Source of the DNA: Spinacia oleracea
Taxonomy: Eukaryota > Streptophyta > Magnoliopsida > Caryophyllales > Amaranthaceae
Length of the DNA: 64,000 bases
Reading direction: 5' to 3'
Assembly (NCBI RefSeq): GCF_020520425.1
Contig: NC_079488.1
Span: forward strand, 23,066,247 to 23,130,246
A program made the translations under genes and the position numbers. The notes below the pieces were generated by a model. That model saw nothing but the letters and a program-made list of their open reading frames with translations. It did not search any database and was not told the DNA's origin. The stretch's first letter is position 1. Every line of letters begins with the position of its first letter. Positions 7,901-52,289 of the stretch are shown piece after piece.

Positions 7901-8139
7901 AAGCTCATATCAATTTATAATTGAATCCAAAAATTTAATTTAATTTCAGTCGTATTTAAATTAATTCATGATTTTAATTTTAGTAAAATAATTAGAATAA
8001 ATAACATTTATTATAATTATAATATTCAAAATTAAAATCCAAGAAAATAATTCAAATTATTAATTTTAAAATCAATTAAAATTACCTGAACTGAAATTTT
8101 CAAATTAAACATTCAAAACGATCTAATCGTAACGCAAAC

Positions 8140-9502: not shown

Positions 9503-9516
9503 GGCTCGTGATACCA
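9503..9516 (-). other. Copia primer-binding site (tRNA-Met type)
   Basis: On the minus strand TGGTATCACGAGCC follows the 5' LTR after one base. It resembles the initiator tRNA-Met complement TGGTATCAGAGCCA and sets the element's direction. Confidence 0.8.
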
Positions 9517-9517
9517 C

Positions 9518-14836: not shown

Positions 14837-16060
14837 GATACCAAATTCTACACATCTCACAAAAAACATGTTACTAACCAATCTCTACACATCTCACACT
14901 AATCATGTTACTAAACATACTATATAGTCTAACTACCGCTCAAAGTTTTCTAAATAAACAATCAAATAATTGATTTTATTAATTATATAAAAATCAATAC
15001 TTATTAATGATATAAAGTTAAATAATTTATTAATGATATAAAGATCAATAATTTATTCAAACGCACTTATAAATTATATAAAGTTCAATAATTTACTTAT
15101 AATTAGCCACCCGGCCACTAAAGTTGGTCTTAGCGTCTGGGAGATTCTCTATCATGTAAACCAACTCTTGATTAGTTTGGCATTATCCCCTGAAATATGT
15201 AAAATGCCCTTATTTTTTATGTAATTAAGCCTTTTTAAATATCAAGCATACATCACGTGCATTTAGATCTAGTCTAAAATGATACAACTAGTTAGTAACT
15301 ATGATCTTGCTTCAACTTTTTTAGGAATTGTGAATAATTAAAGATATTTTGAATTACTTTTTTAAAATCGTACGTAGTTACTCTATTTTTTTTAAGGTAA
15401 AAATTAGTTCATTGATAAAAACATAGTTACTTATAATTACTTAAAATGTATCATTCTTATCCCTAAATCAACCTTATAGTCGATCAAAAGTCATAAACTT
15501 TTGACATTAAAAGATGCTTATATTTCATTAGGATAACTCCCCTACCCCTTTAGAACTTTCCATACACTAAAAGGTTTAGAACGAATCACAAATATCTTCT
15601 TGAAATCTAACACAAAAATCATGCATACTCCCGAATTCACGTGGCTTCATATCATTTTTCACACCTAATCTAAAATCTATTAGGACTATTTTCATCAATT
15701 GGCCTATTATTCTTTACCAACTTTCTCTTAGATTCTTATTACTGCGTAGAATATATACTACAAGTCAGTCATTACAGCTAACATCAACTGAAAAAACATC
15801 AAATCATTATATAAGGGGCCAAATTAAACGTTTCTCGATCATCCTTAACGGCTACTTTGACTATTGCTCATCATTTTCAAGAATGCCAGACAATTAAGAG
15901 CACATGAAATGAACACCATCAAGAACTAAAGCAACCTCTTTCACAAAATTCCAGAAATTCAACCTAAAACAAGTACACACCACAATCTAAAAAGAAAATA
16001 AATTCATAAAAACAATAACATATTTAATTTCAGAGAGAAAAAAAAGCAGAAATACAACTC
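14837..16060 (-). other. CACTA-1 region upstream of the transposase
   Basis: About 14840-14925 holds two or three copies of a ~37-bp repeat built around CATGTTACTAACC, also present upstream of the CACTA-2 transposase. The remainder is AT-rich and shows no gene or clear repeat; it is probably the leader and a first intron. Confidence 0.5.
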
Positions 16061-16069
16061 ACCAGATTT

Positions 16070-16345
16070 AGTTTGTGCGGTAGTGCGGTTGTGCGGTTGT
16101 GCGGTAGTGAGGTTGCTCAGATTTTACGGTAGTGCGGTTGTGCTGGGAAGGAGCGTCGGCGGGTGGCGGTAGTGCTGTAGTGCGGGCTGTGGCGGGTTTT
16201 TGGAAGTGTGGTAGTGCGGGCTGGGAAGGTGCGTCGCCGGCAGGTGGGAGGGGCGTCGCCGGTAGTGGTAGGTTCGTCGCCGGCAGCCCAAATCGCCCAG
16301 CAGGTTCGTCGCCTCGAGGTGCTTCGCTGGGTGTGAAGCTTTTTT
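16070..16345. repeat. G-rich low-complexity leader of CACTA-1
   Basis: Imperfect repeats of GTGCGGTAGTGCGGTT at the start, followed by GCGTCGCCGGCAG-type repeats. CACTA-2 has a GC-rich stretch at the corresponding place (about 53620-53900). Probably the transcribed leader of the transposase gene; open frames here follow from composition. Confidence 0.55.
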
Positions 16346-16419
16346 TTATTATTTATTTTGAAATGTAGATCTGAATGAAGTTGGTCACAAATTGTACTCA
16401 AATCTCTTTTTTTTCCTTT

Positions 16420-16720
16420 AAAAAATTACCGACCGCTTATATGGTTGGAGATATTAAATAGGCGGTAATTAAAATTTTGAATGAGTTTTGGAAATAGTCG
16501 GATTTTTACCAACCGCTCTTTAGTCGGAATACAAGAAAAAGCAGTCGATAAATTACCGACTGCTTTAAAAGCGGTGGGTAAACTTAAAATTTAGCGACCG
16601 CTCAATTTTCGGTCGGTAAATTACCGACTGGTTTTTTAACGGTCGCTAATTTTTTTTTTTACTGACTAATTTTTTGGCGGTCGGTAAAAGCAGTTGGTAA
16701 TCAAGCGCTTTCTTGTAGTG
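16420..16720 (-). repeat. CACTA-1 terminus and subterminal repeats
   Basis: Several direct and inverted copies of TTACCGACCGCTT-like motifs, ending in the terminal CACTACAAGAAAGCGC on the minus strand. In En/Spm elements such repeats are where TNPA-type proteins bind. Confidence 0.85.
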
Positions 16721-17249
16721 ATTGAAGTCATTCTCCATGTTCATTGCATGCTCAATGAATTAATGTTTATCAGGGTGCACAATAAGCATTGTACATTCGG
16801 GTATATAATCCAAAATACGGTGTATTACTTACGGTTCTTTATCCAAAATCTTACAATAATACTTATTACATTAACCAAGTTTTGTAGAGACACCAACACC
16901 ATGCTTGGAAATGGTGTGGTGGGAATACTCTCGGAGACTTGTAACAAGTGGGAGAGACGAAGTCCTTTAACACCAGCTCATTGCGCTCGTCTCCTACACA
17001 ATGGAAAACATAATGGAGGTAGCGTGACCCGGATAATTTTACAGCCTTCTTCGAAGAGAATATACCACGATGCTCTCTATGAGGAGGTTGGTTGTGAGGT
17101 ATCAGAGGACTTATCGGAATGTGGACTCATTGTTGGCGTTAAACAACCTAAGGTACGTACATTGATTAATGGTACTCATTGTTGGCGTTAAACAACCTAA
17201 AGTACGTAAAGTTGTAGGAGATAAGTGGTTGTTTAGTTATCAAATATTA

Positions 17250-17526: not shown

Positions 17527-20449
17527 TTATTTTATCAGATGCATTCTTTGCGAAAAATGACATAACTTGTTCATTTGATTGCAGCTAGAGATGATACTTC
17601 CTTACAAATCTTATGCCTTCTTCTCACATACCCACAAAGGACAGCAAGAAAGCGTGCCTTTGCTAGGCAAGGTATGTAATGTCGTGCCTAATGTAATACA
17701 TATGAAGTATATATGTATTCTCCCGGCCTATTGGGCAAGTGGTAATGATTATTGATCACCCACCAAACGAATTGTCATACTGTGTTATGTACTCTTTTAC
17801 AGATTATGGCGGAAATGGCAACGTTGTTTGATTATGAGCTCATTGCTGGGGGTGATGGGAAAAGGAAACTTGCATTTGGAAAATATGCTGGAAGTGCTGG
17901 AATGATATATGGTTAACAATCAAGGGGAAAACTCTGTGTCCCTTGCCTATAAATCTATTCGAATATCTGTTGATTCTGTTCATATTGAAGCACCAACGCG
18001 TTCTTTGTTATATTACTTTGCTGTGGATGACGTTTATTTTCAACAAACTTGCAGGTTATCTGAGTTTTGGATATTCAACACCCTTCCTTGCCCTAGGTTT
18101 ATCTTACATGTATCCTTCATTGGCTGCTGCCAAGGCTGCTGTAGTATATGTTGGTGAAGAGATCGCCACTCTAGGATTGCCAGCCGGCATTTTCCCTCTC
18201 GTTTTTGTATTTACAGGAACGGGGAATGGTATTACTCTACCTTGTTAGTCGCTGTTAATGGTAAAAAAAACTGGCACACAACAATTCAGTTCAGGTTTCT
18301 GACAAGAAGTTTGATATAATTTGTTACAGTTTCGCAAGGTGCACAAGAGATATTCAACCTACTTCCTCATACCTTTGTGGATCCTAGCAGACTGTCGGAG
18401 CTGTTTGAAACTGTAATTTTATTCTCATTCTCTTACAGTTCGCTTAGCTGTTGTGTCGTCTGATATTGCTTAAGTGTTTTTTAGACAAAATGAAGCACGA
18501 CATGGTTAAGCTGTTGTGTCGTCTGATCTTTCCAAAATACTTAACTTATCTTTGCTAAAGTGAACTTATTGTTTTAGAATATAATCAAGAGGATATGATT
18601 TTGAGATATGATTTCCAAAACATGATCATATGATGAATAGACTGTCTGCAGGACGCCATACTGTGTAAATTAACATTAAAGTCACATGTACATTATCCGC
18701 GGTTTGTAGGCAGTGTTGCGAACTGTCTTGTTCCCTCTGCATTCTTGGATTATTGTTGCTTTTTGTTAGAAAGTAAGTGCATGTGAGACTGTGAGTAATT
18801 GTTTTCCACATCGGAAGATGAAGCAAATAACTTCTAGTTTGTAACCTGAGTGGGCTCCTTCTCATCTTCCCGGCCAATTGGTTTTAGGATGGACTCTCAT
18901 TTGGGTTATGTTCGTGGGATTCTGTTTACTCCTTGATTCTCCCATTTGTTATAACACTTTTAATCTCATTTTAACAGTTTTGACATATTTCAGACTCGAT
19001 GGCAGAATCAGCGCTCTAAGGTGTTATATGGTTGTGTTGTAACAAGCAAAGATATGGTTGAACCCAAAGATCCCAACAGAGTTTTTGATAAAGTAATGTA
19101 CTACGTTCCCTTCCTTTGTAGAGAATATTATATGCACCCAGGTGTACGGTGCTTCCTCTCGCATCTTCTCCTTATATTTGAGGAGAAAATGAGTAGGGAC
19201 CACCTATGGAGATAAAAATACTCTTGGGTACACGATGCACCCGGGTATATCTAATAATTTTCTCTTCCTATGTAGTGTTTACTAACGGACTAATGTGTTC
19301 GTGACACTTTGATTACTACTATAAAAAAAACCCATAAATCATTAGTATACAATTTTGTCTAACAGAAGAACTATTGTTTTTCAGGCTGACTACTACTCAA
19401 ATCCAGAGGGTTACTCTCCGATTTTTCATAAAAGAATTGCCCCATATGCATCTGCAATTGGTGTGTAGCTCGTGTCTACTTTTAACTTGTCGTACTTGTT
19501 AGGATGAGTTTATCCCTCATAGTCAACATCAATATTCAGACTCTGCCACATCATCTTTCCACTAACTTTTATCTACTTTTTCATAATTCAAACGCACAAA
19601 TTACTCTCCCTATTGTTACACATTATCCCCAGACTCGCCACAGACTCAACTGAACTCCTAAAAAAAAGATAATTAAATAGGATAAAGTATGATTATGTGG
19701 CATAATTTGATTTTGTTGGAGAAAAAGTGGAGTATTAAGTGAGCCTTGACTCTTGAGTGAGTCTTAAATTTTCAAAGTCAATTCAAAACTGGTTGTAGTC
19801 TTTTACCACATTATCTCAAGAGTTTAGCTCTACACTCCCCTCGAGACTAGGGATAAACTCACCCTTATTCATCGGTTAGACTCCTTGTTACGGTCAATCT
19901 GGTTTAGACAATGGAACGTGATCTTCCAAGGCCGTGTCAATGCATTCTAGCTAGCAATTCCAATAACACATACTCGTAGTTAATTGATTTTCCTTTTGTT
20001 TGTTTCTCGAGAGTAGTGAATTGCATGTACTGGGAGCGGAAATTTCCTAAGTTGTTGACAACGGAGCAACTTGAAGATGTAACTATAAAAAGATGTCCAC
20101 TTATTGGTATCGCTGATATAACATGTGACATAGGAGGATCTATCGAGTTTGTTAACCAAGCTACCACAATTGACTCACCTTTCTTTAGGTACTATGCTCT
20201 CTGAGTTTTTTCTGATTATCTGTTGTAAACTTATGATTTATATTTTTATACACAAGCTTAATTAAATCTGATGTTTGTTGACACCCTTCTATTCGAACTC
20301 AAATGATCTCAGATTATATAACTGTCTTCTATGTTTGCAGATTTGATCCAATTAAGAAGTCGTACCATAATGACATTGAAGGTGACGGCGTGATATGTTC
20401 AGCTGTTGAAATCCTTCCCACTGAGTTCCCAAAAGAAGTATGTTCCTTT

Positions 20450-21032: not shown

Positions 21033-21212
21033 TTATGTAAATGTATATAACACATTGTTAGTAAACCACGATCATAAATCTATGTTTTCATTATTTACGT
21101 TCTTTATTGTTTTTCTTGCTTCCGTTATAACCATTCTCTAACAAATTGTGCATATGCTTAAAAGGCTTCCCAACATTTTGGAAATATCCTGTCGGAATTT
21201 ATGGATCGGTTA

Positions 21213-23971
21213 TGTAATACCCCGAAATTTTTTTTAACTCAATTTATTAAAATTAAAAATATTTATTAGCTTGATTCCGTTTTAAATAATTACGAATAAT
21301 CGAATTTCGTTAATTTAAACGTTTTTACTATTTATTTTTAAACGATAAATTTATAAACGAAAATTTATTTATTTAGGTCTCGTTAACGATATTTTTTTTT
21401 TTTGTTATTAAGAATTTTTTTTTTTTACTACACATTTATATTTTTAGTAGTTTCCAAAAATGGCAACAAATTTCAAAAATTTTAGCCTAATCTTGGGAAA
21501 TTACGAAAATGCCCTTAGAAGAGCCAAAATTCCATTTCTTTTATTCTCTTTGCTTTCCACGTACAAAGTAAGAAGGAAGCAATTTCCTTCCTTCCTCTCT
21601 TCCCTTGAATCTGTCCACATTCATTTGCTTAAGCCCCAAGTTCTTCTCCTTCTCCTTTACTCTACATGTTTTCAAAACCAGAAATTCAGATTGAAGAATT
21701 CAACCAAAAATCAATTCCATTCCTCTCCTCTCTTGTTTCTCTGGTTCAAACTAACCCCCACCACCACCACTGCTCAACCACCGACCATTGCACCTAGCCT
21801 CAGCCACCCAGCACCACGCAACCACCACACCGCAATCACCTCAACCACTCGACCACCACCCTCACCCTGCTCTCCACCTCCCTCGAACTCCCCTGCCCCT
21901 CCCCTGTTTCTTTTCTCTTTCCTTGCTCACAACACCACCAACGCAACGCCCCACCATCGTCCAGCATAACCACCACTGGCGCAACCCTTCCGCGCCGCCT
22001 AGCCAGCCTCCAACGACCTCCCTCCTCCCCATAACTGATCGGAAAACCGCTCCCCAACTCCCCTGTTTTCTCGCCTCCCTCGCACTCCCTCCTCCCTCTC
22101 TCGCCTGTATCACCACCGCACGAGCAACCACCACCATCACCGTCGCCTCTAGGCGCGGTTCACGGTGATGCGCCGCCCAGCCATCCGCCGCAGCTCTCCC
22201 TCCCCTTCGTGACCCCCTGTGCCGTGCACCACTCGACTCCCCTGCTTCTCCCCAGTCGTGCCCCCTTTCTCCCTCTTGCTCGTTGTTCGACCACCGCAGA
22301 CCACCCACCAGCACCGGCGCAACCCTGCTGCGCCGCCCAGCCTCCCTTTCTCCATCCTCTCTTCTCTCCTCTTCGTGCTTCCCTTTCCCCTGTTTCGGCC
22401 CTCCCCTGTTCCGTGTTCTTGTTCCCAGAAAACCCAAAATCAGGTTTCAAATGAAACCTTGATTTTATTTTCCTCAAACCCAATCTAAGGTTGGGCCATT
22501 TTGGTTTGGGCCTTGGTGAGTTAAAAACTGAATTGCATGTTCAGAATTTCTAATTAATAATTTGCTTGCCTTAATAAATTTTGATAATTTAGTTATTTTC
22601 CAATCAAATTATTATTTTTTTTCAAGTAGAAAAATGTATACACATATTTAATTTCTGGTTTTAACTAAATAAAGTCACTAGCTTGGATTAATGGAATAAA
22701 AATAATATTTTCATGAAAATCGATTTATAAAATTGTATTTTGATCGAAAATTCGATTAATAATAATAATATTTCGTTAAATTTTGAAATCATGTTTTATT
22801 AAAATTTGTTATTTACAAATTCGTTATTTATAAAATTTATGATTTACAAAATATTGATTTTAAATTATTTATCAATTTAGTACTAATTCAATGATTTAAT
22901 ATTTTGGAAGAAATTGGACTCGGAGCTCAGGACGAACGAACCAAGGAAAATCCTTAGCAAAAATCGCGGAGATAGGTAACGGCTATTGCTAGTACCCGCA
23001 ATTCCCTTATAAATGCGTTTGTGAAAATACAATGTTATGATTTATTTATGAATTGAATGCTTTGACATGTTTTATGAATTGCGGGAAATGAAATGTGATT
23101 TGATTGAATTATTTATTATAATATGATTGATTGAAATTCTTATAAAACGATCTTTATAAGAAACCATGAATGAAATGATGTCTCTATGATGCCAGGAAAG
23201 AAATGATATTTTATGGATCTCAGGATCTAAATGATGTTTTATCATGATCTCATGATCTAAAGGAATTATGTTACTTCTACTGAAGTAGAAAGGCTAAAAT
23301 GTAAAATTAAACAAAACATGATAAATGAAAGTGAAATTCCTAGTCCGTTTGGCAGTATATGTTCACAGGTTACGATTCTCGGTCATGCATGTACCCATGG
23401 GGCATCCGCCCATTGAGCCAAGGCTCTCATGTTTTCGGGCCAAGGCCCCATGTTTATGGACAGCGGTCCATCGTGGAAGACGTTCCACCATGTCATACTT
23501 GCCACGACTAGCATGTGCACCCTAAAGTTATGAATGAATTAAATAAAGGACCTTATTAAATGTTTTACATTATTCTATTCTCCCTGTGTTATTAAATAAA
23601 ATGAATTGAAATGAATTTACGTTGCTAGAATAGTTCGTTACTGAGTCTTCGGCTCACCGTTATTTTGTTTTCTGTTTTAGGTACCGCTGGGAACGATGGG
23701 AACGAGTAGTGGCGAGGATTTCACTTTAATAATTTCCACCTAGTTTATGTTTTAAGTTTTAAATAGTTAATTAAATATTTTTAGTGAGTTATATACTTTA
23801 TTTTGGTAATATAAAGGATTATTATGTTAATTTTGGAGGATTTAATAGCTTAAGATTGATGGTTGCCTTGTAATTCCCAAGAGAGAGTTACGGCAGGTAA
23901 TGTCCCGACCGATTAGGTTGATTCCGCTGCTAATTATGATTAATAATTGAATTAGAGGTCGGGGTGTTACA
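21213..23971 (+). repeat. Gypsy 5' LTR
   Basis: 2759 bp with TG...CA ends. It holds a C-rich tract at about 21750-22400 that opens spurious frames on both strands; these recur unchanged in the other LTR and are not genes. Confidence 0.95.
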
Positions 23972-26900
23972 GTTTGGTATTCAGAGCCAAGGTTCTGGAC
24001 CATAAGTGCTAAACCTTACGGGTTTCGCACGAAATAGAATTCATTAGGCTTTAAGCAAAGAGTTTTAAGGAATTGGTTAAAAAGAATTTTCTAAAATCAT
24101 GTTAATTAAGTTAAAAATGAATATGAGTGTGAGCGTAGGAACGGGATAAAAGGGCTTATTTTATACGATTTAATTGCTTTAATTTGTTGAGACATATTAT
24201 GCTGAATGTTGTCTATCGAGGTTACTAATGATGTCCCCAAGGGATCGCAACGAGCACCATGATAACCACATTATGCACGAGGATTATGCCATATCGATGC
24301 AATTATGAGTGTTTTCTTTCCTAGTGATTGTGAATTAGAAATTGTCCTATGATGTTAGAGAAAGTCGAGTTTTAGTATCCTTTGACCTATCTACGTTTGA
24401 TATAATTTTGGGAATGAATTAGTTGACTGAATATGAAGCTAACATCAATTGTTTAAAGCGTAGTGTGATCAAAATGCCAAATGAGGATAGGATTGCATTC
24501 CCTAAGTTAGTAAGAAAACCAATGATTCAAATTTTCTCTGCTTTGAAAACCCCTATTGACCAATGGTGAATTTTTCTGGTTATCCTTGTAATGTTGTCGA
24601 TCACCCATCACCTATACAACTATTGTTTGTGAATATGCAAATGTTTTCCAGAAAAGAAACCTAGTATGCCTCCACCGAGAGAATTAAACTTTAGCATAAA
24701 AGTAATCACAATATCCACCCCGATTCCTAAAGCACCTATAGAATGACAGCAACTGAGTTGCAAAGAATTGAAGAAACAATTAGATGATTACTTGGATAAG
24801 GGTATATTCAACTGAGTGATTCACTTTTGGGAGCCATGTCATATTTATGAGTAAAAATGATGGAACTATGAGGTTATGCATAGACTATAAAGGGTTAAAC
24901 GGGATTACTATTAAGAACAAATATCATTTACCCCTTATTTATGATTTGTCTGACCAACTTCAAGGTAGGAAAGTATTTTTAAGGATAGGTTTGAGGCCGT
25001 GATACCATCAACTTTGCATTAAACTTGAGGATATTCCAAGAACAACCTTTCGAACCAACTATGGTCACCATGAGTTTGTTGTAATACCTTTTGGGTTAAC
25101 TAATGCATCAGCTGTATTTATGGATTTAATGAACCACATTTTCAAACCATACCTTGATGAGTTTGTAGTTGTTTCCATTGATGATATTTTGGTACATTCT
25201 AAGAGTAATGAGAAACACGAGGAGCATCGGAGAAAAGTGTTAGATATGTTGATTAAAAACAAATTATGTGCTAAGTCGTCAAAGTGTAAATTCTGGCTTA
25301 AGGAAATATCGTTTCTTTAGGTCATATTATTTCTGAGAAAGGTGTATCTGTTGATCATGAGAAAGTAAAAGCAATCGTGGAATACCCTAGACCAACCAAT
25401 GTCCTTGAAGTATGAAATTTTATGGGTTTAGCTGAAGATTATCGAAAATTTATCTAAGATTTCTCTAAGGTTGCCTTACCCACAATCCGATTGGTTAGAA
25501 AGAATATCAAATTTATGGGGAATGATGATTGCAAATTTGCAATTTGAGAACTTAAGAAACGTATCAAAATTTCCTATATCCTTGCCTTCCATCCGGAACT
25601 AAGAGACTTGTTATTTATATTAATACTTCTAAACATGGAATATGATGTGTCGAAATGGAACAGGAAGGTCATAGATGATTCTCTTGCCAACTCCAAGTCC
25701 CTGAATAGAACCACCTTACTTATGTTCTTGATATACAATACCCTACTAGAAAGGCAAATGTTATTGTAGATGCTTGAGTCAAAATCTTACCTAAATTCGA
25801 TCCTACCTTTCTACGAGCCAACCAAGATGATCTGTAAAACCTGGAAGTTAAGTTGTTAAGAATAAAGGAAATGTTTGTTTAAATGCGTTAAGTCAGCACC
25901 GAGACCAACTATGATTGATGAGACTAAGGAAATATTTGTTATGGAAGTCAAGTTCCTTAAGGATAAAGGAAACGTTTTCTTGAATGCGAGGCCAACTTTG
26001 AATTATGAGATTAAGGAAGTACGAATTAAGGATTTGCGCTAAAAACAAATGATCGCTGTGGAAGTTATGACCATTAGGTTCGGGATTATTCTGAGTTGTC
26101 ACCGTCAGCCACACATACTAAAAGATTGTCTATTGACAACGACCATAGAACCAATGACATTGTTAGCATGCCTCAGAAACCCATGACTGAAGTAGATCCT
26201 ATGACGAAACTACATGAGAAAGGCAGAAATGATACCAATGGTCCTTGTAATTCTCTTTTCTAATTATTCTATACTCGTTGATATTCCTTCATTCATTTAT
26301 TACTTGTCATATATGTTCGGAGTTTGTACCAAATAGGTTGATATGTTTAGGTTGTTGAGTACTAGGTGACCTAAAGAGATTCAGGCACGTTAGAAAGATG
26401 TGATGTAAGGATGATATGTTAGCAAATATGAGGAAGATTAACAGTTAATCGTTGAAAAAGGAGGGTAGATTTCTACAATAACTAAGAGACGAAAGATTGA
26501 AGTTGGAAGTTATCAGACAACTAGGGAAAGGAAAATTTTAGTTGCCTATAGCAAGTGCTCGAATACCCTTCCAGGAGGATATATGATAGACCCCTTTAGA
26601 GAGAACAAAAGATTTTAGATTTCATTGAGATGAGTTAATTTGAGGTAATCATTTGAAGAACGATAACATAAAGAAGTCACTTGGGAAACCCGATCTTATG
26701 TGCAAAGAAACGATAATGTATGAGTGTTACAGAGAATCAAGATAAGTTACCATTATGCGTCATATATCTGGTATCAATGGAATTGGTGCAAAAGTATTTT
26801 GAAGGTTCGTTGAGCTATTAAGAACATACTAGAGATTGTAAACCAATTACCATAAAGTTAGCTGAAATTATTTTGGGATTATCAATTGTATGTGAGATCT

Positions 26901-28324
26901 TGATGAATCACAATTAAGACCCGTGCTTCGATACATTTAGTAAACTTACCTATGGATAGTTTAAGAATGATGGAAAACCCTAAGGAACAAATTTGAGGAA
27001 AGCGCAGGAGTTCAGGAAGTTTCGAAATATGTCATGTTGGCAAGAAAGTAGTTTCGAAGGCTATGAAATGGCAACCTAGAGTGAACAACCTATACTAATC
27101 TATGCTAAAGTATTTACCGCATATTCTGAGTATATGTAGATACCTCAACCAGGCCATGTTCAAGGATCGAGTCACGTGATTTGGGTTGAGCCTCCATCGT
27201 TGAAAGAATTTGACTTAGGCGAGAGAATGTTGAACATCATTGTGTTAAAGTGAAATCAAAGAAATGCATGTTGAAGGACTAAAGGATGATTGATATGCCT
27301 CTATTAAGGAAGCTAAGAAGTTATCAATAATTGGTCTATCAATAAGGTTGAATGATAAAGTGCCGAAAGAGCACAAGTTTGTATTGTATAAGTGGCGAAT
27401 CACAAATTAAATCAAGGTTATTCAAGGTTTCAAAGCGTTCAAGTTATGGTTGATTTTCGAGTTACCTTTCCGCACCCTTCATAATGATTGTTTTGTGGAT
27501 GTAAGTACCTAAGTGTATTCTCAGATATGTTAGGGAAGCTAAGCTAGAAATTTTGAAGTTATGCAAGAATAGTATGCGGGACCCAACATGATTTATGGTG
27601 AAAAATATGAAATTGAGTTTACACATGAAGCTTTGAGGATTGTACAACAAATAAGTTATCAAGAATTAAGTTGTCAATAAGGTTGACGATATCATTGAAT
27701 GTTAGAATTTCGAAAAGAATTATGAATGATTGAGGATTGCAATGGAACTGAGATTAGAGAATCAACATATGACATGTCTATAGGACCAGGTAATCTGAAC
27801 TAAGTTTTCTGGGAGCTAGATTGTTTGTGATAAAGGCACGCTTGATGGCTTAGCATTATCCGCAAAATCCGAGGTTTGTCGACTTAGAATATAAAGGATA
27901 AGTAACAAAGTCATATGTCTAACGATGTATTTCTAGTCACATGATTGGACTCGAACCCCTGCAACGATCGTAATCAACAAGTTATTTAGTGTAGAAGAAA
28001 AGATCGAAGTTCGAAAGCAAAACGAATCAAGCGATGAAAGTCGACGACAAGATCCCTGCAGCAAAGAAGCCTAATAACAAACGAAAATGAAATACCTTCA
28101 AAAAGTTGCCTAAGGACAATAGAATGTGCGAATCACTATGTTTTCTGTGAATATGTAACGTATCAATCATGCTTATGCGTGAGATCAAATGATTGGTTAT
28201 GGCATGTATGTTTTCAATGAATAACGAATAGAACGATCAAGTATGTCATGTAAGATTTCTAGAAATCGGCAAGTTCGACTGAGCTCCAGTTTCGAGGACG
28301 AAACTTTTTCTAAGGGGGTAAGGA
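23972..28324 (+). mobile_element. Gypsy internal region, decayed
   Basis: Primer site TGGTATTCAGAGCCA at 23975-23989 (tRNA-Met type, one base longer than usual). A protease-like trace lies near 24390 and reverse-transcriptase traces at about 24860-25330, including the catalytic-region motif SIDDILVHS near 25180. No integrase could be recognised by eye. The purine tract AGGGGGTAAGGA at 28313-28324 abuts the 3' LTR. Broken in many places. Confidence 0.85.
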
Positions 28325-31083
28325 TGTAATACCCCGAAATTTTTTTTAACTCAATTTATTAAAATTAAAAATATTTATTAGCTTGATTCCGTTTTAAATA
28401 ATTACGAATAATCGAATTTCGTTAATTTAAACGTTTTTACTATTTATTTTTAAACGATAAATTTATAAACGAAAATTTATTTATTTAGGTCTCGTTAACG
28501 ATATTTTTTTTTTTTGTTATTAAGAATTTTTTTTTTTTACTACACATTTATATTTTTAGTAGTTTCCAAAAATGGCAACAAATTTCAGAAATTTTAGCCT
28601 AATCTTGGGAAATTACGAAAATGCCCTTAGAAGAGCCAAAATTCCATTTCTTTTATTCTCTTTGCTTTCCACGTACAAAGTAAGAAGGAAGCAATTTCCT
28701 TCCTTCCTCTCTTCCCTTGAATCTGTCCACATTCATTTGCTTAAGCCCCAAGTTCTTCTCCTTCTCCTTTACTCTACATGTTTTCAAAACCAGAAATTCA
28801 GATTGAAGAATTCAACCAAAAATCAATTCCATTCCTCTCCTCTCTTGTTTCTCTGGTTCAAACTAACCCCCACCACCACCACTGCTCAACCACCGACCAT
28901 TGCACCTAGCCTCAGCCACCCAGCACCACGCAACCACCACACCGCAATCACCTCAACCACTCGACCACCACCCTCACCCTGCTCTCCACCTCCCTCGAAC
29001 TCCCCTGCCCCTCCCCTGTTTCTTTTCTCTTTCCTTGCTCACAACACCACCAACGCAACGCCCCACCATCGTCCAGCATAACCACCACTGGCGCAACCCT
29101 TCCGCGCCGCCTAGCCAGCCTCCAACGACCTCCCTCCTCCCCATAACTGATCGGAAAACCGCTCCCCAACTCCCCTGTTTTCTCGCCTCCCTCGCACTCC
29201 CTCCTCCCTCTCTCGCCTGTATCACCACCGCACGAGCAACCACCACCATCACCGTCGCCTCTAGGCGCGGTTCACGGTGATGCGCCGCCCAGCCATCCGC
29301 CGCAGCTCTCCCTCCCCTTCGTGACCCCCTGTGCCGTGCACCACTCGACTCCCCTGCTTCTCCCCAGTCGTGCCCCCTTTCTCCCTCTTGCTCGTTGTTC
29401 GACCACCGCAGACCACCCACCAGCACCGGCGCAACCCTGCTGCGCCGCCCAGCCTCCCTTTCTCCATCCTCTCTTCTCTCCTCTTCGTGCTTCCCTTTCC
29501 CCTGTTTCGGCCCTCCCCTGTTCCGTGTTCTTGTTCCCAGAAAACCCAAAATCAGGTTTCAAATGAAACCTTGATTTTATTTTCCTCAAACCCAATCTAA
29601 GGTTGGGCCATTTTGGTTTGGGCCTTGGTGAGTTAAAAACTGAATTGCATGTTCAGAATTTCTAATTAATAATTTGCTTGCCTTAATAAATTTTGATAAT
29701 TTAGTTATTTTCCAATCAAATTATTATTTTTTTTCAAGTAGAAAAATGTATACACATATTTAATTTCTGGTTTTAACTAAATAAAGTCACTAGCTTGGAT
29801 TAATGGAATAAAAATAATATTTTCATGAAAATCGATTTATAAAATTGTATTTTGATCGAAAATTCGATTAATAATAATAATATTTCGTTAAATTTTGAAA
29901 TCATGTTTTATTAAAATTTGTTATTTACAAATTCGTTATTTATAAAATTTATGATTTACAAAATATTGATTTTAAATTATTTATCAATTTAGTACTAATT
30001 CAATGATTTAATATTTTGGAAGAAATTGGACTCGGAGCTCAGGACGAACGAACCAAGGAAAATCCTTAGCAAAAATCGCGGAGATAGGTAACGGCTATTG
30101 CTAGTACCCGCAATTCCCTTATAAATGCGTTTGTGAAAATACAATGTTATGATTTATTTATGAATTGAATGCTTTGACATGTTTTATGAATTGCGGGAAA
30201 TGAAATGTGATTTGATTGAATTATTTATTATAATATGATTGATTGAAATTCTTATAAAACGATCTTTATAAGAAACCATGAATGAAATGATGTCTCTATG
30301 ATGCCAGGAAAGAAATGATATTTTATGGATCTCAGGATCTAAATGATGTTTTATCATGATCTCATGATCTAAAGGAATTATGTTACTTCTACTGAAGTAG
30401 AAAGGCTAAAATGTAAAATTAAACAAAACATGATAAATGAAAGTGAAATTCCTAGTCCGTTTGGCAGTATATGTTCACAGGTTACGATTCTCGGTCATGC
30501 ATGTACCCATGGGGCATCCGCCCATTGAGCCAAGGCTCTCATGTTTTCGGGCCAAGGCCCCATGTTTATGGACAGCGGTCCATCGTGGAAGACGTTCCAC
30601 CATGTCATACTTGCCACGACTAGCATGTGCACCCTAAAGTTATGAATGAATTAAATAAAGGACCTTATTAAATGTTTTACATTATTCTATTCTCCCTGTG
30701 TTATTAAATAAAATGAATTGAAATGAATTTACGTTGCTAGAATAGTTCGTTACTGAGTCTTCGGCTCACCGTTATTTTGTTTTCTGTTTTAGGTACCGCT
30801 GGGAACGATGGGAACGAGTAGTGGCGAGGATTTCACTTTAATAATTTCCACCTAGTTTATGTTTTAAGTTTTAAATAGTTAATTAAATATTTTTAGTGAG
30901 TTATATACTTTATTTTGGTAATATAAAGGATTATTATGTTAATTTTGGAGGATTTAATAGCTTAAGATTGATGGTTGCCTTGTAATTCCCAAGAGAGAGT
31001 TACGGCAGGTAATGTCCCGACCGATTAGGTTGATTCCGCTGCTAATTATGATTAATAATTGAATTAGAGGTCGGGGTGTTACA
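28325..31083 (+). repeat. Gypsy 3' LTR
   Basis: 2759 bp, almost identical to 21213-23971 (one difference noticed, near position 28590). Followed by the duplicated GGTTA and then the rest of LKR exon 10. Confidence 0.95.
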
Positions 31084-31160
31084 GGTTAGCATCAACAACA
31101 GATTATGAAGAATTACCTCCCCATTTGAGAAAAGCTTGTATAGTTCACAAGGGAGCACTT

Positions 31161-31904
31161 TGTCACGGATGGCCTCCCACACTATCGCATGTGGCAGCAT
31201 GCAAGGCAGCAAGCATCGCAAGGCAACGCGGTGCACCGCCAAGGGCGGCGGCAAGGTCGTTGGGCACCATCGGGCAACGTGGTGGTCCATCGGATAGTGG
31301 GTCGTTTGGGGGTCCAAACGATATCCAAATGGGCTGAAACTTGGGGGCCCAAAGTATTTTGGCCCAATGAAGACAATTGTCGGGCCAGATTTTGGGTTTG
31401 AGGCCCGGATGGGCCCGGTTCGCAGCAGCTATGCACGAGAGTGCACCGGAAACTTCTAGATGGGTCCGGAAGTGTGTAGCTTGCTTGGATGATGATGGTT
31501 CTAGATGGGAAGGGTCTAGAACCTTGCTGTACAGATTAGGGAGAGTATTCTAGAGACCTCCATGTATAAAGGATTCCCTTTGGAAGTGGGAACATTCTAG
31601 AATAGTGTAGGGTATTCTTTGTAGGAGTAGTGTGGAATGTTCTAGAGTAGAAGTCTCTAGGCACTTGGGAGCCTATAAATAGGCTTGCCCATTCATTTGT
31701 ACATTCAGCCAACACAAGTGTATTCATTCTCAAGCAATAGAAAAACCTTTCCAAACTCTCTTGCTTACAAAGTTTCCTTACTTAGCCATTTTCGTAGCGC
31801 ACTTAGCATAGCTAAAGGGGTGAAGTGCCTTGACTAGTGATCCGACGGGACTGTGACGCTAGTAGGCAGCGTGCATACGGCTTAGAAATAGTCAGCACGT
31901 GACA
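31161..31904 (+). repeat. TR-GAG 5' LTR
   Basis: 744 bp. It contains CTATAAATAGG near 31674, a plausible TATA box, and several TCTAGA-type repeats (TTCTAGA at about 31455-31640). Confidence 0.9.
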
Positions 31905-32002
31905 AGTGGTATCAGAGCGGGAACGTTCGTTGGGACGTAACATCGTTGACGTTGAAGAGCTAGCTGTTGTGTGGACGAAGTTCTGATCGACGGACTGATC
32001 GG

Positions 32003-34201
32003 ATGGCATCGATCAAGGATAGTGTTGGTGCATCTGGCGTGGTGGAGGATCCCACCAAGAGGAGGAAGCCATCGACCACGGAGCTTGATGGTCGCTTGGC
32101 TAAAGTAGAGCTGGCGACGGCGGACCTCGTCGACAGCATGGGGCTTGCGGAGCAGCAACTCGAAGAGTTGAAGGGGCTTGCTTCTAGTCATGGACAAGGC
32201 ATCGAGGGAGTCGATAGCCGTGTCCAAGTGTTAGAGTTGGGGACTACGGCGGCGGCCGAGGAGGCAAGGGAAGCCGTGAACGTCCTCATTAATGAGGTTG
32301 CTGCCACACTTTGGGGAGAGGTGGCACAACTAAGGGATGCCATCATGGGGCATTACAATGTCATGAAAGAGCAACTAGAATCCGTCAAGGGGGACGTGGT
32401 TCTACTAAAGGCGGCAGTAGCCGGGGGCGCTACTATTCGGGAGGGACCAAGGATGAAGGTTCCGGAGCCGTCTAAATTCGAGGGCAAGCGTGACTCGAAG
32501 GCTATCGATAATTTCTTGTGGAGCATCGAGAGGTACTTCGAGGCCATGCATTTGGATGACGATGCTACAAGAATCTCCACCGCCACCATGTACTTTTTGG
32601 AGGATGCCATCCTTTGGTGGAGGAGGCGTGAGTTGGACATCCAGAAGGGTCTTTGCTCGATCAAGACGTGGGACGAGTTCAAGGCCGACTTCAAGAGGCA
32701 GTTCTATCCGGAGAATTCCGAAGAAATTGCGATGAAGAAGCTGCGTGGGTTGAAGCATACCGGATCAATCAAGGAGTATGTGAAAGAGTTTACTTCACTC
32801 ATGCTAGAGATATCGGATCTTCCGGAGAAGACCCAACTCATCTACTTTATGGATGGGCTACAACGATGGGCGGAGCAAGAGGTGCGGCGACGAGGAGCCA
32901 AGGATCTTGCCGAGGCCATAGCAGTGGCGGAGTCCCTATATGAGCTGCCAAGTTCGAGACGGGACAAAGGGAGGAGGTTCGATGAGGACGAAGGTGACGA
33001 GGAAGCATCGCATCAACCGAGGGCCAAGCATGCGGAGCATGGGAAGGACAAGGCCCAACCAAAGAGGGACGGTCGCGACGGAGGTAAGTCGTTTAGGCCT
33101 TTGAAATGTTATCTTCGCGAAGGTGAACATTTTGCAAGGAACTGCCCCGTCCGACAAAAGTTGGAGAAGATGAGTGCCATGGTCGGCACTACGGAGGAGG
33201 AGCCAACTGCCGAGAGAAGGCTAGGGGCGATGCAAATGGACGAGGAGGTCCAGCTCGCCAATTTGAGGCTCCGTAATGTTGGGGTCGTGGACAGCAGGCC
33301 GCGGGAGAAGGTCGTGCCACGGGAGATGGCACCCACGACAATGAAGGGAGCGGGCATCAAGTCGGGTGGAAACTTGATGGTCGTGCATGGAGAAGTGAAC
33401 GAGGAACCGTGTCGGGTGCTCGTGGATACTGGAGCAACCCACAACTTTCTTGCGCGGGGAGCAGCCAAGAAGTTAGGGGTGAAGTTCACTCGGGTCGGCG
33501 GCGAGATGAAGGCCGTCAATTCAAAGGCAACGCCAGTGTACGGCAAAGCATGGGACATTCCTATCCGCTTGGGGAAGTGGAGGAGCAAGGTCGACTTTGT
33601 GGTGGTCGACATGGATGATGAGGACGTGGTGCTAGGCATGGAGTTCCTAGACTCGGTCCTACCATTTCGAGTAGGTGATGGCGTGATGACCATCACACAC
33701 AAGGGCAGCGAGGTCGACATTCGACTCGCAAGGGACAAGGAAGACTACATGAGAATCTCTTCCTTGAAAGCTCGTGCAACGGCAACCAAGGGACGTCGAA
33801 GGAAAAGGGACGCGTGGTTCGGGTCGTGGGCACGAGAGACAGCTGATCGTGTGAAGCTCCATGGGAGGAAAAAGGAAGGTAGGCATGGTGCCTATCGTAA
33901 GGGCGAGGTGCCCAAGGTTGGGGTCGTGCAGCGGCAAAGCATTGGACGAGGTGCATGGTGCGGGTCGTGTGCACGCACAACGGGACGTCTTGACGAGGGC
34001 GTCAAGAATTTAGGTGGGGGAGAATGTCACGGATGGCCTCCCACACCGTCGCATGTGGCAGCATGCAAGGCAGCAAGCATCGCAAGGCAACGCGGTGCAC
34101 CGCCAAGGGCGGCGGCAAGGTCGTTGGGCACCATCGGGCAACGTGGTGGTCCATCGGATAGTGGGTCGTTTGGGGGACCAAACGATATCCAAATGGGCTG
34201 A
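32003..34201 (+). CDS. Gag-protease polyprotein of the TR-GAG element
   Basis: A single long frame of about 730 residues from MASIKDSVG, ending within the 3' LTR; an upstream in-frame ATG at 31967 would add 12 residues. Order: N-terminal coiled-coil-like stretch (residues ~25-130), retrotransposon gag domain with the ILWWRRRELD core (~155-285), an acidic/basic hinge, a CCHC-type knuckle (CYLREGEHFARNCP, ~370), then a retropepsin-like domain with the catalytic LVDTGATHNFL (~475). It would form capsid-like particles and process them; replication would need enzymes from another element. GC-rich and unlike its AT-rich surroundings. The frame appears whole. Last residues are LTR-encoded. Confidence 0.85.
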   Translation: MASIKDSVGASGVVEDPTKRRKPSTTELDGRLAKVELATADLVDSMGLAEQQLEELKGLASSHGQGIEGVDSRVQVLELGTTAAAEEAREAVNVLINEVAATLWGEVAQLRDAIMGHYNVMKEQLESVKGDVVLLKAAVAGGATIREGPRMKVPEPSKFEGKRDSKAIDNFLWSIERYFEAMHLDDDATRISTATMYFLEDAILWWRRRELDIQKGLCSIKTWDEFKADFKRQFYPENSEEIAMKKLRGLKHTGSIKEYVKEFTSLMLEISDLPEKTQLIYFMDGLQRWAEQEVRRRGAKDLAEAIAVAESLYELPSSRRDKGRRFDEDEGDEEASHQPRAKHAEHGKDKAQPKRDGRDGGKSFRPLKCYLREGEHFARNCPVRQKLEKMSAMVGTTEEEPTAERRLGAMQMDEEVQLANLRLRNVGVVDSRPREKVVPREMAPTTMKGAGIKSGGNLMVVHGEVNEEPCRVLVDTGATHNFLARGAAKKLGVKFTRVGGEMKAVNSKATPVYGKAWDIPIRLGKWRSKVDFVVVDMDDEDVVLGMEFLDSVLPFRVGDGVMTITHKGSEVDIRLARDKEDYMRISSLKARATATKGRRRKRDAWFGSWARETADRVKLHGRKKEGRHGAYRKGEVPKVGVVQRQSIGRGAWCGSCARTTGRLDEGVKNLGGGECHGWPPTPSHVAACKAASIARQRGAPPRAAARSLGTIGQRGGPSDSGSFGGPNDIQMG

Positions 34202-34768
34202 AACTTGGGGGCCCAAAGTATTTTGGCCCAATGAAGACAATTGTCGGGCCAGATTTTGGGTTTGAGGCCCGGATGGGCCCGGTTCGCAGCAGCTATGCAC
34301 GAGAGTGCACCGGAAACTTCTAGATGGGTCCGGAAGTGTGTAGCTTGCTTGGATGATGATGGTTCTAGATGGGAAGGGTCTAGAACCTTGCTGTACAGAT
34401 TAGGGAGAGTATTCTAGAGACCTCCATGTATAAAGGATTCCCTTTGGAAGTGGGAACATTCTAGAATAGTGTAGGGTATTCTTTGTAGGAGTAGTGTGGA
34501 ATGTTCTAGAGTAGAAGTCTCTAGGCACTTGGGAGCCTATAAATAGGCTTGCCCATTCATTTGTACATTTAGCCAACACAAGTGTATTCATTCTCAAGCA
34601 ATAGAAAAACCTTTCCAAACTCTCTTGCTTACAAAGTTTCCTTACTTAGCCATTTTCGTAGCGCACTTAGCATAGCTAAAGGGGTGAAGTGCCTTGACTA
34701 GTGATCCGACGGGACTGTGACGCTAGTAGGCAGCGTGCATAAGGCTTAGAAATAGTCAGCACGTGACA
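34025..34768 (+). repeat. TR-GAG 3' LTR
   Basis: 744 bp, near-identical to 31161-31904. The last 38 bp of LKR exon 10 follow after ACTT. Confidence 0.9.
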
Positions 34769-35050
34769 ACTTGCACCCTTATACGAGTATATTGATCGAC
34801 TTTGCGACTAGTAAGCTTCTTGTTCTTTTTTGGTTGGTCTTCCATTAATTTAATTAGAGTTGATCATACTATAGCTAACTGTCTACTGATTAGCAATTTA
34901 TGAATTTGTTCCAGCAAATTACCACAAAATCTTCCAGATTGAAGAATATTCACACAAAAGAATAACTATGTTGGTGCTCATCAAGTTACTATAGTTCATG
35001 TTCCAACATTAGTTGACCCGAAAGAAGTGTGATTTTCAAGTACAAAAGAA

Positions 35051-38034: not shown

Positions 38035-41000
38035 TTAACTAGAACATGGTGCTCCACCGCCAGACGGATCTCGAGGGTCTTGTTGTTGAGTGAAAGGGAA
38101 AGAACCACCGCACTGGCTGAGCATCTTAGCGTAGTACTCCATTGCTCTTTTCATCTCGGCAAGATGCTCAGCATTTCTTCTACTATCTTCTTCTCTCTCC
38201 CTTTGCGCCTGAAGCTGTTCTTCTTCTCTCTCCTTTATCATTTGAAGTCGTTCTTCTTCTCTCTCCTTTATCATCTGAAGTCGATTTTCTTCTCTCTCTT
38301 TTAGCATCTGAAGTCGTTCTCTCTCTATCTCAAGCCTTTCTGTCTCAATCTGAGTTCTTTGCCTTTCAAGCTCAATGGATTGTTGAGACAATTGTCGTTG
38401 AGATTCTTCCAACCGCGTTGTAAGTTGAGAAAAAATAGAAGGTGAGTATCTGCTAGACGAACTACCACCCCTTCTCGAAGATCTTGCATAGTATAGATGT
38501 GCACCACTCCCCAAACCAGGAACCTTTCCCTTCTTTCTCCCACCTACCGTTTCAAAGTAGATCTGATTCAGATCTTTATCAATGCCTTTCTCACGGCATT
38601 CAGCAAGTTTCTTCTCGTAGATTTCCTACAAGAATTGAAACAATTAGCAAAGATACATAACAAATATAAGTATAACTTTTCAAAATCTCGCTCGCAAGTT
38701 GAACAAAACAATTATAAGTCATATTTTAACTAAAATGACATATTTCGCTCCAAACTTTCAACTAATAAACGCAAATAACACTACCACAAAAGTGTTAATA
38801 TCCAACGCCTAATTTAACAACGGGCTGAAACGGAACCGCTTTAATTAAAAGTAATTTATAACCTCTCTAGACTTTTCTTCCCCACCTTACCCCACCCCTA
38901 ACAAACTCTCCACTTCAGAGAACATAAAACTGCACGGTAGGAGTTGTGCGATTCCGATCCAAATGTCTCGTGAATTAAAAGGTTTGCTTGAATTCTTAAA
39001 TAATTAGTATATGTTTTGCTAGTATTCTTTCTATTTCTGAACTTGGATCATTCAAGGTATCACCATGTTTGTTTCATTAGGGGTGATTTGTTTAGATTTA
39101 ACTTAATTCAGGTTTTCAAATTGCCACTGCCGCATTACTCAAAATTTTCTCTTTCTCTTTTGTTGAGTTTAATGGATTCTAGGTTCTTTAGATTTGATTT
39201 ATTGTTTTAAACTTTGAATATAATGTACTTTTGGATTTTGATTTTATTCTCTTCTAATGAATGCCGCGTCTGAGAACTCAACATACATATTAGTTAGTGG
39301 AGGTCGTCGTCTCACCGCTAAGGTATATTTGTTTGATTGAAATGTTAATTTTTTTAAGGGTTTGGTATCTCTCTGGGATGATAATTGGTGCTCTGATATG
39401 TCCCTTAGAAAAATGATCCAAGGTCCCCTTCAAAAAGGTGAAGACATTCTTCATGTCAATGCTCTTATCAGAAACGGTAGTGGGATCTTTCTCCCCTCTC
39501 TTTCAACCTCCCTGCTGATGTGGTTCAATTGTGTCTTTCAGTGCAATTTAATGAGCAAGCCCCCTGACTTCTTCTTCTCTCTGTTTACTTCAAATGGAAA
39601 TTTTGATTTTAAAAAGGCTTTGGAATTTTTGCAAACTAATTCCCCTTCCCTTTCTCATGACCTTACTTGGATTTGGAAATCAAATGCTCCTCCTAAGATT
39701 AAATTTTTCCTGTGGTTGGCTTTTTTTGACAGATTACCTTATAAACAATCCCTTCTTGTGAGGCACATTACAAATACAAATAGTTGTAATTGGTGTCAGA
39801 ATACACCTGAGGACACTCTCTGTCCTCAGGGATTGCCACCAAGCAAAAGGGATCTGGGAACTTTTACAAACCCCCACCTGATGACCAAAGCATCACCCTT
39901 CCATGGAATATCTTGTTTGCCTTCGTTTCTTGGAAACTTTGGTTAAAAAGAAATGAAAGCATTTTCTCCCTCACTACTACAGATTCAGGTAGGTGCCTTC
40001 TCGAGGCTCAAGCTTTAGCTTGGGAATTTCATACCTCGAGAAGTTGCAGCTTCCCACACACTCAAGCCCCAAACCCTACAAATCAGCCCACCTGGAAACC
40101 CCCACCCCCACTTTGGCTCAAACTCAATTGTGATGTCTCGTTCACCAAATCTGGTGAAGATGCAGGGATTGGAGGTATTTTTAGAGATAACCAAGGTTCT
40201 TGGAGACTTGGTTACCAACAGAAATGCAGGATAAAATCGACTCTCATGGGAGAAATCAAAGCCATCTATATAGGATTACAAATTATCTGTGACAGAGATT
40301 GGAGAAACATAACCATCTGCTCTAATTCTAAGCAGGCAATAGACGTCATCTTGCAAGACTTGAGTGCAAAGGATGATAATTTTCATATGGGTAAATGCTT
40401 GCAGGGAGCTCTTGAGGCCTATGTTACTCGGACTCTTCGTTTTACCTCAAGTACCCGTGTCGGATCCTCGACACTTGGACATGGGTATGGACACTCCGAC
40501 ACTTCATTTTGGTCTAAAATTAAGGAAATTTTCCTCAATTTAGCCGTGTCGGACACTTGGACAGGTACCCGTATCCGACACTCATACCCGAGTCTGAGTA
40601 ACATAGCTTGAGGCACATGACTAACAACAACATTGAGCTAGAGCAGGGAGCAAGAAGCACAAACAGAGCAGCAGACCTTTTGGCTAAACAATGTAGAAAA
40701 GTGTAAACTCTAGTTATGCTAGACTCATTTTAACTCAAGTCCCTGATTTTGTAGGGAATGTAATCCTGGAGGACAAGCCTCCCTGAACATGTACTTTGTA
40801 CTTCGACTGTTTTTAATTAATTTTGTTCCCTGCTTGCATCAAAAAAAAAAAGCAACTCAGTAATCAAACCCCTACATAATTACTCAAATGGTAAGAAGGC
40901 AGAAGTATCTATGTGAGAGGATAATTGTTTGAGGGTAGTCGCCCTTGTCGGCACGTATAATTTTTACTAGATTTATCTAAAGCAACCGAATTTTTGTACC

Positions 41001-44000
41001 AGCTATCTAGAATTGTTTAGTATAGCTAGGCTAAATGAATTAGAAAGATAATAATCTATTTCCATTCTGTTCTGTATACACTTCTTTCAATTATTTTTAG
41101 ATAAATTAGCCTCATTTGATATGAGAGAGAGTAAACAACTTCTCATACATAACATGTGAAATTGAAATGGATTTTGATTGAATTGAAGGACAACATATCT
41201 TTTCCTGAAAATGTTAGTTTCTAGAGGTTTTAAAATGGATTTATACGATGTACTTGTTACGCTTAGATTCAAGTTCAAGTTGTTTTAGAACTATGTTGTT
41301 CGTCGTGATTTACTCATATAACTGGTACTCAATTCAAATATATAAAAGTACAATAATATAAGTGTTCGTGTATTACTCAATTCAAATATATAAATTTTTT
41401 TATTCCAATAACACAAGGTGTGAAATGACGAGTTGATATGAAAATGCTAGGAATAGAAGGTTCTATAATTAACTTAAAAACATCATAACCGTATTTATTT
41501 GAACTGGTACTCAATCCAGGCCTGTAAGCTCAACTGGTAGAGCAAGGTGCAAATGCACAATGATGTAGGTTCGAGGTTCGAATCCTACATAGGCTATGAA
41601 AATATGTATGTAGTATTTATCTTCTTTTTTAATAGTTGATCATAAAATGAAAATAAATACTACCTCCGTCCCCCATTACTCGTTACACTTATCTTTGAAC
41701 AAAGTTTTAGGTGATAAGTGGTTATTTGGTTATCAATTGTTACTTTATTGAAAACGTAGATGTGATAAGAGTTAGTAGAATATTTTTTTAATTGAATGAG
41801 AGGGGGTGTGGGGCCTGAACTTTTTTTAGTGGGAAGCGAGAGACAATATAATAATGGTGGGGTCATTCCTAATTTAGAAGTGCAACAAGTAATATGGGAC
41901 AGACATAAAAAGAAAGTGTACCAAGTAACGTGGGACGGAGGGAGTAAATAAATAAGTACATTTAACAATGGTTGGGGCAATCATTGTTAAATGATACCCT
42001 CCCTACAACAACGCTTTCATAAACAACGGTCGACAACCGTTGTCTATAGCTACTTTTAACCGTTGTCTATTACAACTTTTGTAGTAATGTAAGTTATTTC
42101 AACTCTATACAAGTTTAGTACACTTAGGGCCCGTTCAGTATCACTGTCAGTTTCCAATTTTTGGTTTTTTGGTTTAGTAAGTCATATAATTTAGATTGAA
42201 TTATAAACTAAAAAATAGTCATACCTATTGTAATCACGTTAATTTTGAAAACTGACAACAAAAAACTGGAAACTATTTTTTGTGGTTTTCGTATTTTGGT
42301 TTTTAGTTTTGTAAAGAACAGAAAACTGGAAACAAAAAACGATACCGAACGAGCCCTTAGTTTTATGTTTCGACAACTCATTCTCACCTATTTTGGTCTA
42401 GTAATGCACATTTAAAGCAATATATGTCATATTTTAAATAAAATTGCTTATGTCGCCCCTAACTTTCAACTAATGAACATAAATAAGTTATTTAAACCCT
42501 ACACAAGTTTAATAAACTTAGTTTTATGCTTCTAAAACTCATTATCACCTACTTTGGTTTAGTTATGCACATTTAAGATTCGATTGATGAATATACATCA
42601 TATTTGGACTAAAATAGTTTATTTCGCTCCTAACTTTCAAATAATGAACCTAACTACGGTATTTAAACCATATACATGTTCAGTAGACTTAGTTTTATGT
42701 TTTTAAAACTCATTCTCACCTAGTTTGGTTAAGTTATACACATTTAAAGCTCGTTAGATGAATATAGGTCATATTTTGACTAAAATGACTTATTTCACTT
42801 CTAACTTTCAACTAATGAACCTAAATAAGTTATTTAAACACTATACATGGTATGTTTCTAAGACTTACTCTCACATACTTTAATCTATTAGTGCACATTA
42901 AGGATCATTTGATGAATATAGGTCATATTTTGACAAAAATGACTTAGTTCGCTTCTAAGTTTCTACTAATAAACCTATATAAGTATTCTAAACCCTATAC
43001 ATGATTAATAGGTTTAATTTTATGACTGTAAAACTCATTCTCACATTCTTTGGTCTAGTGATAAACATTTAAGGCTCGTTTGATGATTATAAATCATATT
43101 TTGACAAAAATAACAATATTTCGCTCCTAACTTTCAACTAATGAACATAAACAAGTTATTAAAACCCCAAAGAAGTATAGAAGACTTAGTTTTATATTTC
43201 CAGGACTCATTTGCACCTACTTTGGTCTAGTTATCCACATTTAAAACTCGATCGATAAATATAGGTCATATTTTGACTAAAATGACTTTTTTCGCTCCAG
43301 ACTTTCAACTAATGGACTTAAATAACTTATTTAAACCCTATACATGGTTAATAGACTTAGTTTTATGTTCTAAAACTCATTTTACTTACTTTGGTACAGT
43401 TATGCGCATTTATGACTCGTTTGATGAATAAAGGTCATCCTTTGACTAAAATGACTTATTTCGCTCCTAACTTTCAACTAATGAACTTAAATAAGTTATT
43501 TAAACCATATACAGGTTTAGTAGGCTTAGTATTATGTTTCAAAGTCTCATTGTCACGTTGGTCTAATTATGCACATTCAAAGCTCGTTTGATAAAATAGG
43601 TCATATTTTGACTAAAATAACTTAGTTTGCACCTAAAATTTTTACAAAAATAAATTACTTAAATACTATACAAGTTAAGTAGACTTAGTTTTATGTTTCT
43701 AAAACTCACTCTCACCTACTTTGGTCTAGTTATACACATTTAAAGCTCGTTTGATGAATATTATTCAAATTTTGACTAAAATGGCTTTTTTCGCTTCTAA
43801 ATTTCAAATAATGAACCAAAATAAATTATTTGAACCCTACACATGTTTAGTAGACATACTTTTATGTTATAAGACTCAATCTCACATACTTTGGTCTAGT
43901 AAGGCACATTAAGGATCGTTTGTCGAATATAGGTCATATTTTGACTAAAATGACTTAGTTCGTATCTAACTTGCCACTAATGAATCTAAATAAGTTATTT

Positions 44001-52281: not shown

Positions 52282-52289
52282 GATACCAA

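Follow-up and report, generated by a model that had tools for sequence, protein, structure and literature searches.

In a 64,000-nucleotide stretch of the Spinacia oleracea genome (RefSeq assembly GCF_020520425.1, contig NC_079488.1, forward-strand positions 23,066,247 to 23,130,246; hereafter the window, numbered from its first letter), the last LKR exon of a gene copy that carries only the LKR part of LKR/SDH is interrupted by two different long terminal repeat (LTR) retrotransposons, inserted 72 bp apart. By LTR divergence a TR-GAG element inserted first and a Ty3/gypsy-type element second. Our preferred explanation, which we regard as probable, is that the copy was a redundant LKR-only duplicate struck by TR-GAG and then by the gypsy-type element, with the closeness of the two sites reflecting tolerance and chance and no shared target. 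The pattern looks like the ordinary decay of a spare copy, not like a shared insertion target.

The gene copy (copy 1) was modelled by tblastn and GT/AG splice borders, using as query a provisional Arabidopsis LKR/SDH protein sequence, whose matches agree with the PDB match described below. This query matched exons 1–9 and the first two pieces of exon 10. Coding exons 1–5 lie at 16901–17152, 17585–17671, 17803–17911, 18055–18228 and 18330–18412, and exons 6–9 at 18994–19092, 19385–19460, 20014–20188 and 20341–20437, all on the plus strand. The spliced model comprises ten exons with GT/AG borders and 1310 nt, giving 436 codons with no stop, an open frame that is conditional on GTTAAC as the exon-3 donor. 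The spliced protein aligned to alpha-aminoadipic semialdehyde synthase (PDB 8dda, a chain that we take to be the human LKR domain; E 2.2e-82) over query residues 5–433 of 435, and homology in this alignment spans the whole LKR domain. The AlaDh_PNT_N domain scored 59.2 bits in the whole protein (cut-off 30.4), while AlaDh_PNT_C scored 22.1 bits in the whole protein, below its cut-off of 23, and 26.4 bits, above it, in exons 8–10.

A search for SDH (residues 456 to the end of the provisional Arabidopsis query) in 34811–64000, 1–16900 and 21213–34768 returned four matches, the best at E 0.67 and none convincing, and SDH was likewise unmatched when the whole window was searched by tblastn with the complete query. 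Because the ten LKR exons are present and SDH is unmatched in the window, the locus is LKR-only and not a complete LKR/SDH gene. PMC3017810 describes eleven exons for wheat LKR, two monocot exons corresponding to one in dicots, which would give ten for dicot LKR, the number found in copy 1. Given ten dicot LKR exons and no SDH match, both elements struck the final exon of a copy that is LKR-only.

Exon 10, 158 bp in total, begins after an acceptor AG at 21163–21164 and is preserved on the plus strand in three pieces of 48, 72 and 38 bp. Piece 1 (21165–21212) ends with the target-site duplication (TSD) GGTTA (21208–21212), piece 2 (31089–31160) ends with the TSD ACTT (31157–31160), and piece 3 (34773–34810) ends at a GTAAGC donor that starts at 34811. 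An earlier reading of the letters, hereafter the original prediction, had described these piece lengths, both TSDs and the donor, all of which were confirmed base for base; its label of tenth exon is correct when counting starts at the ATG exon. Spliced together, the pieces read ASQHFGNILSEFMDRLASTTDYEELPPHLRKACIVHKGALAPLYEYIDRLCD, a stop-free run of 52 codons. That they lie in the LKR frame, as had also been proposed, is borne out by this open frame together with tblastn and the PDB 8dda alignment. The Arabidopsis query matched piece 1 at E 0.084 and piece 2 at E 0.003; piece 3, at 38 bp, gave no separate tblastn match to that protein and is assigned to LKR because of the reading frame and the 8dda alignment of the spliced protein. 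The presence of two LTR pairs with exact TSDs within one open exon would exclude a chance pattern. When the frame is continued beyond the exon-10 donor, TAG TAA follows immediately at the junction. Although exon 10 ends in IDRLCD where the provisional Arabidopsis query has IPRMRK, we do not claim the frameshift that this might suggest, since PMC3017810 lists this exon junction with those showing the largest monocot–dicot differences.

The TR-GAG element occupies 31161–34768 on the plus strand. Its LTRs (31161–31904 and 34025–34768) are 744 bp each, differ by five mismatches and have TG...CA ends, and the element is flanked by the exact 4-bp TSD ACTT (31157–31160 and 34769–34772). Most of the interior is taken up by an open reading frame (ORF; 31967–34201, plus strand) of 744 aa that has a TTG start, extends into the 3′ LTR and carries Pfam matches to gag, capsid and aspartyl protease. 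The Pfam scan of this ORF gave no reverse transcriptase (RT) or integrase match. TR-GAG elements are defined in PMC6022998 as LTRs with GAG, or GAG and aspartyl protease, only, and this is the content of the 31161–34768 element.

The other element spans 21213–31083 on the plus strand, between exact copies of the TSD GGTTA (21208–21212 and 31084–31088). Its LTRs (21213–23971 and 28325–31083), 2759 bp each with TG...CA ends, differ by a single mismatch. The element contains TTTGGTATTCAGAGCC, which resembles a primer-binding site and which we take to match Met-tRNA, and a remnant of an RVT_1 domain (E 4.5e-17) at 25003–25317, a domain that we assume to mark gypsy as opposed to copia. LTRs with a TSD, a primer-binding site and an RT of the RVT_1 kind, the features that identify Ty3/gypsy elements, are all found at 21213–31083. 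The interior is a decayed pol relic in which the longest stop-free stretch is 105 codons and no ORF reaches 150 aa. A domain scan covering all 13 plus-strand stop-free pieces of at least 40 aa (13 of the 31 over both strands) gave one RVT_1 match and no gag or integrase match, a negative that decayed remnants could escape; three weak matches to unrelated families fell below cut-off, including one in the piece that carries the RT domain. Because nearly identical LTRs enclose a decayed interior, the element appears to have moved recently using enzymes supplied in trans.

Differences in LTRs, TSDs and LTR divergence agree with the claim of the original prediction that the two insertions are independent and young. 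Dating the LTR pairs by alignment, the check that it had named, made TR-GAG (5 differences in 744 positions) older than the gypsy-type element (1 in 2759), an order that the prediction had not given. At equal rates, TR-GAG would hold at least five of the six differences with P 0.002, rising to 0.008 when the adjacent mismatches at 31183–31184 are counted as one event, and the TR-GAG insertion is accordingly placed before that of the gypsy-type element (P 0.002–0.008). If 1.3e-8 substitutions per site per year are assumed, TR-GAG is about 258 thousand years old (95% interval 84–603) and the gypsy-type element about 14 thousand (0–78); at an assumed 7e-9 the ages become 480 (156–1120) and 26 (1–144) thousand years.

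A decayed second LKR fragment (copy 2; 54970–55452, plus strand), equivalent to exons 4–5, lies 37 kb downstream. In blast comparisons 18059–18244 pairs with 54970–55154 at 84% and 18274–18473 with 55249–55452 at 78%, and the Arabidopsis query matched copy 2 at 54971–55135. Relative to copy 1, one-base gaps are present in both exons. Exon 4 differs between the copies in 23 of 55 codons, 12 of the differences changing the residue; at these 12 the Arabidopsis query agrees with copy 1 at eight, with copy 2 at one and with neither at three, which suggests that copy 1 was under constraint for longer. Upstream of each copy lie minus-strand transposase genes, at 12620–14881 for copy 1 (tnp2, DUF4218) and at 48632–52335 for copy 2 (tnp2, DUF4218, DUF4216), both presumably of the CACTA type. 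The two regions are 88% alike across 3.4 kb, with one tnp2 frame uninterrupted (759 codons) and the other split in two. Descent of copies 1 and 2 from one shared duplication is plausible but unproved. That a CACTA element captured LKR is unsupported: none of the exons contains the element end at 16706–16720, whose exact match is circular, the pattern having been read off that very site, the end near copy 2 has three mismatches (seven such matches occur in the window against 1.24 expected by chance), and the left element end was not found.

The prediction had spoken of no other lesion, which holds for exon 10 but not for the gene, since seven conserved residues are missing from the 3′ end of exon 3 (17803–17911, plus strand). 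The donor left to the model, GTTAAC, is presumably weak relative to the consensus, and translation past it meets a stop at residue 151. We assessed conservation in an alignment of PDB 8dda with all seven bacterial homologues returned, two of which are near-identical. After AGMI, copy 1 shows seven gap columns at positions that are filled in 8dda, in the Arabidopsis query and in each of the seven bacterial sequences, and one of these columns is invariant across all eight references. The original end of exon 3 and its donor were probably deleted. Among the 61 columns invariant in 8dda and the bacterial proteins, copy 1 retains 55 and the provisional Arabidopsis query 56; three departures are common to both, two are confined to Arabidopsis and three to copy 1 (N to S, an absent G, and D to N). 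When copies 1 and 2 were aligned locally around the gap in exon 3, only 3 of 1000 Markov shuffles did not score below the real alignment, suggesting that the copies share intron sequence in this area, with the breakpoints left unfixed; unlike the local alignment, a global one left the bases at the gap unpaired.

Under a neutral-decay model with assumed rates, in which indels were set at one tenth of substitutions and 70% of them shifted the frame, a copy of this length would have a 5% chance of no disabling change beyond 1.3–2.4 million years (My). Counting the exon-3 deletion, that is, allowing at most one disabling change, moves this limit to 2.0–3.75 My. Set against this model, the open frame argues that copy 1 lost constraint recently. 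Either the exon-3 deletion or TR-GAG may have come first.

In the mechanism that we favour, a plant LKR/SDH gene would have been partly duplicated, giving a redundant copy with ten LKR exons and no SDH, the loss of which would be tolerated because a full LKR/SDH gene presumably resides elsewhere in the genome. TR-GAG would have entered exon 10 about 0.26 My ago (95% interval 0.08–0.6, at the assumed 1.3e-8 per site per year), and a gypsy derivative, probably mobilised in trans, would then have inserted itself 72 bp further upstream some 14 thousand years ago (0–78). Their closeness would reflect a dispensable exon that tolerates insertions, plus chance. In our best reading, the simpler account is that constraint was relaxed on a copy that was, we infer, redundant. 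The original prediction had offered relaxed constraint after the first hit; the relaxed constraint stands, but the first hit is not its sole candidate cause, redundancy being as good a one in view of the exon-3 deletion and the nearby decayed second copy. Several points weigh against this account. An intact LKR/SDH gene was not found in the window, and spare copies are not usual, seven of the eight species in PMC3017810 having only one LKR/SDH gene. Roughly 400 bp are all that ties copy 1 to copy 2, and the upstream elements that carry transposase end at different positions relative to the LKR exons. The LTR ages depend on just five and one differences and on assumed rates, and gene conversion between LTRs could lower the apparent age of either element. 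The open spliced frame, moreover, means that the copy may have been functional at the first insertion.

This last point leads to a different history, in which TR-GAG killed a monofunctional LKR gene that had worked until then, and the gypsy-type element struck a gene already dead. We consider this unlikely. In its favour, the 436-codon frame is open, conservation is near normal (55 of 61 invariant columns), the 95% probability of disablement of an unconstrained copy within 1.3–2.4 My, at the assumed rates, implies recent loss, and a stand-alone LKR could use the immediate stop beyond exon 10. Against it stand the loss of seven conserved residues from exon 3, including one at a position that never varies among the eight references, the GTTAAC donor that remains in the model, and the poplar precedent of an LKR-only gene with an apparent frameshift and no EST (expressed sequence tag) match, although the authors of PMC3017810 consider the ESTs too few to exclude activity. 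In its more specific form, a stand-alone gene whose stop codon was formed at the junction where the last LKR exon ends, inactivated by TR-GAG within about the last half million years and then hit again, this history would be a little less likely still. That both elements prefer this exon or its chromatin, the shared target preference raised by the original prediction, is unsupported and we judge it very unlikely. The two sites are 72 bp apart and the elements have the same orientation; in the empty locus of 4422 bp, the probability that two random landings lie within 76 bp of each other is 0.034, that they share an exon 0.010, and that each strikes an exon 0.088, values that concern a pair chosen after the fact, for its closeness, in a window where transposable elements abound. 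GCA follows both insertion sites, a three-base match too short to weigh and possibly due to chance, whereas the TSDs, GGTTA and ACTT, are unlike in sequence and length. A third young LTR element at 580–10899 (LTRs of 1380 and 1382 bp with one mismatch and two gap columns; TSD CGCCC) might also suggest preference, but it lies outside the gene, 10 kb from the nearer insertion. Five stop-free pieces of its interior gave no Pfam match above cut-off, and this element, too, may be non-autonomous. Finally, young repeats are prone to assembly error, which could have put both elements into one exon; the exact TSDs on both and the exon frame, unbroken over both joins, make this most improbable. The redundant-duplicate account thus remains the one that we prefer.

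Elsewhere in the window, a satellite array at 42356–46806 has a period of about 171 bp, longer periods of 340 and 490 bp, and copies about 75–80% alike. Remnants of zf-RVT and reverse transcriptase-like (RVT_3) domains at 39362–40611 probably derive from a long interspersed nuclear element. At 41519–41596 there is a weak Rfam tRNA match (31 bits against a gathering threshold of 29) that ARAGORN did not call. A host gene, apparently spliced, lies on the minus strand at 56959–61960; we take it to resemble a HAD-type phosphatase, but a Pfam scan of a single peptide from it found no match.

For the terms used, our literature search found no report of two insertions in one exon or of LTR ages in tandem-duplicate pseudogenes, and none among the titles listed concerned this locus. 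The locus offers a datable record of the death of a spare metabolic gene copy, through a deletion and two insertions whose order can be read. It also documents, in one genome, two recently mobile elements whose apparent lack of autonomy is of opposite kinds, since no gag was found in one, while the other has gag and protease only. TR-GAG elements, reportedly the subject of Chaparro et al. 2015, share with the element in exon 10 the combination of an LTR element, gag and aspartyl protease with no RT or integrase match. With its near-identical LTRs and decayed interior, the gypsy-type element presumably resembles the non-autonomous Morgane/LARD elements; under the rule in PMC6022998, however, its RT remnant means that it is not a domain-free LARD.

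For the gene itself, the closest parallel comes from poplar, which, according to PMC3017810, has two full LKR/SDH genes and one LKR-only tandem gene (BAC, bacterial artificial chromosome, AC209229). The same paper reports that the poplar LKR-only gene stops about 200 bp beyond exon 11 and that its frameshift is apparent, the authors wanting confirmation, and that monofunctional LKR transcripts of switchgrass continue from the final LKR exon into the following intron, where they meet a stop. The likeness to the poplar gene, as far as it is described there, lies in the presence of the LKR part only, an apparent lesion and a tandem position with other LKR sequence. In spinach, by contrast, the window holds no full gene, and the last LKR exon is occupied by two LTR elements, insertions that go unmentioned for poplar in the sections of PMC3017810 covered here. 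The spinach locus adds an LKR-only copy to the one reported from poplar.
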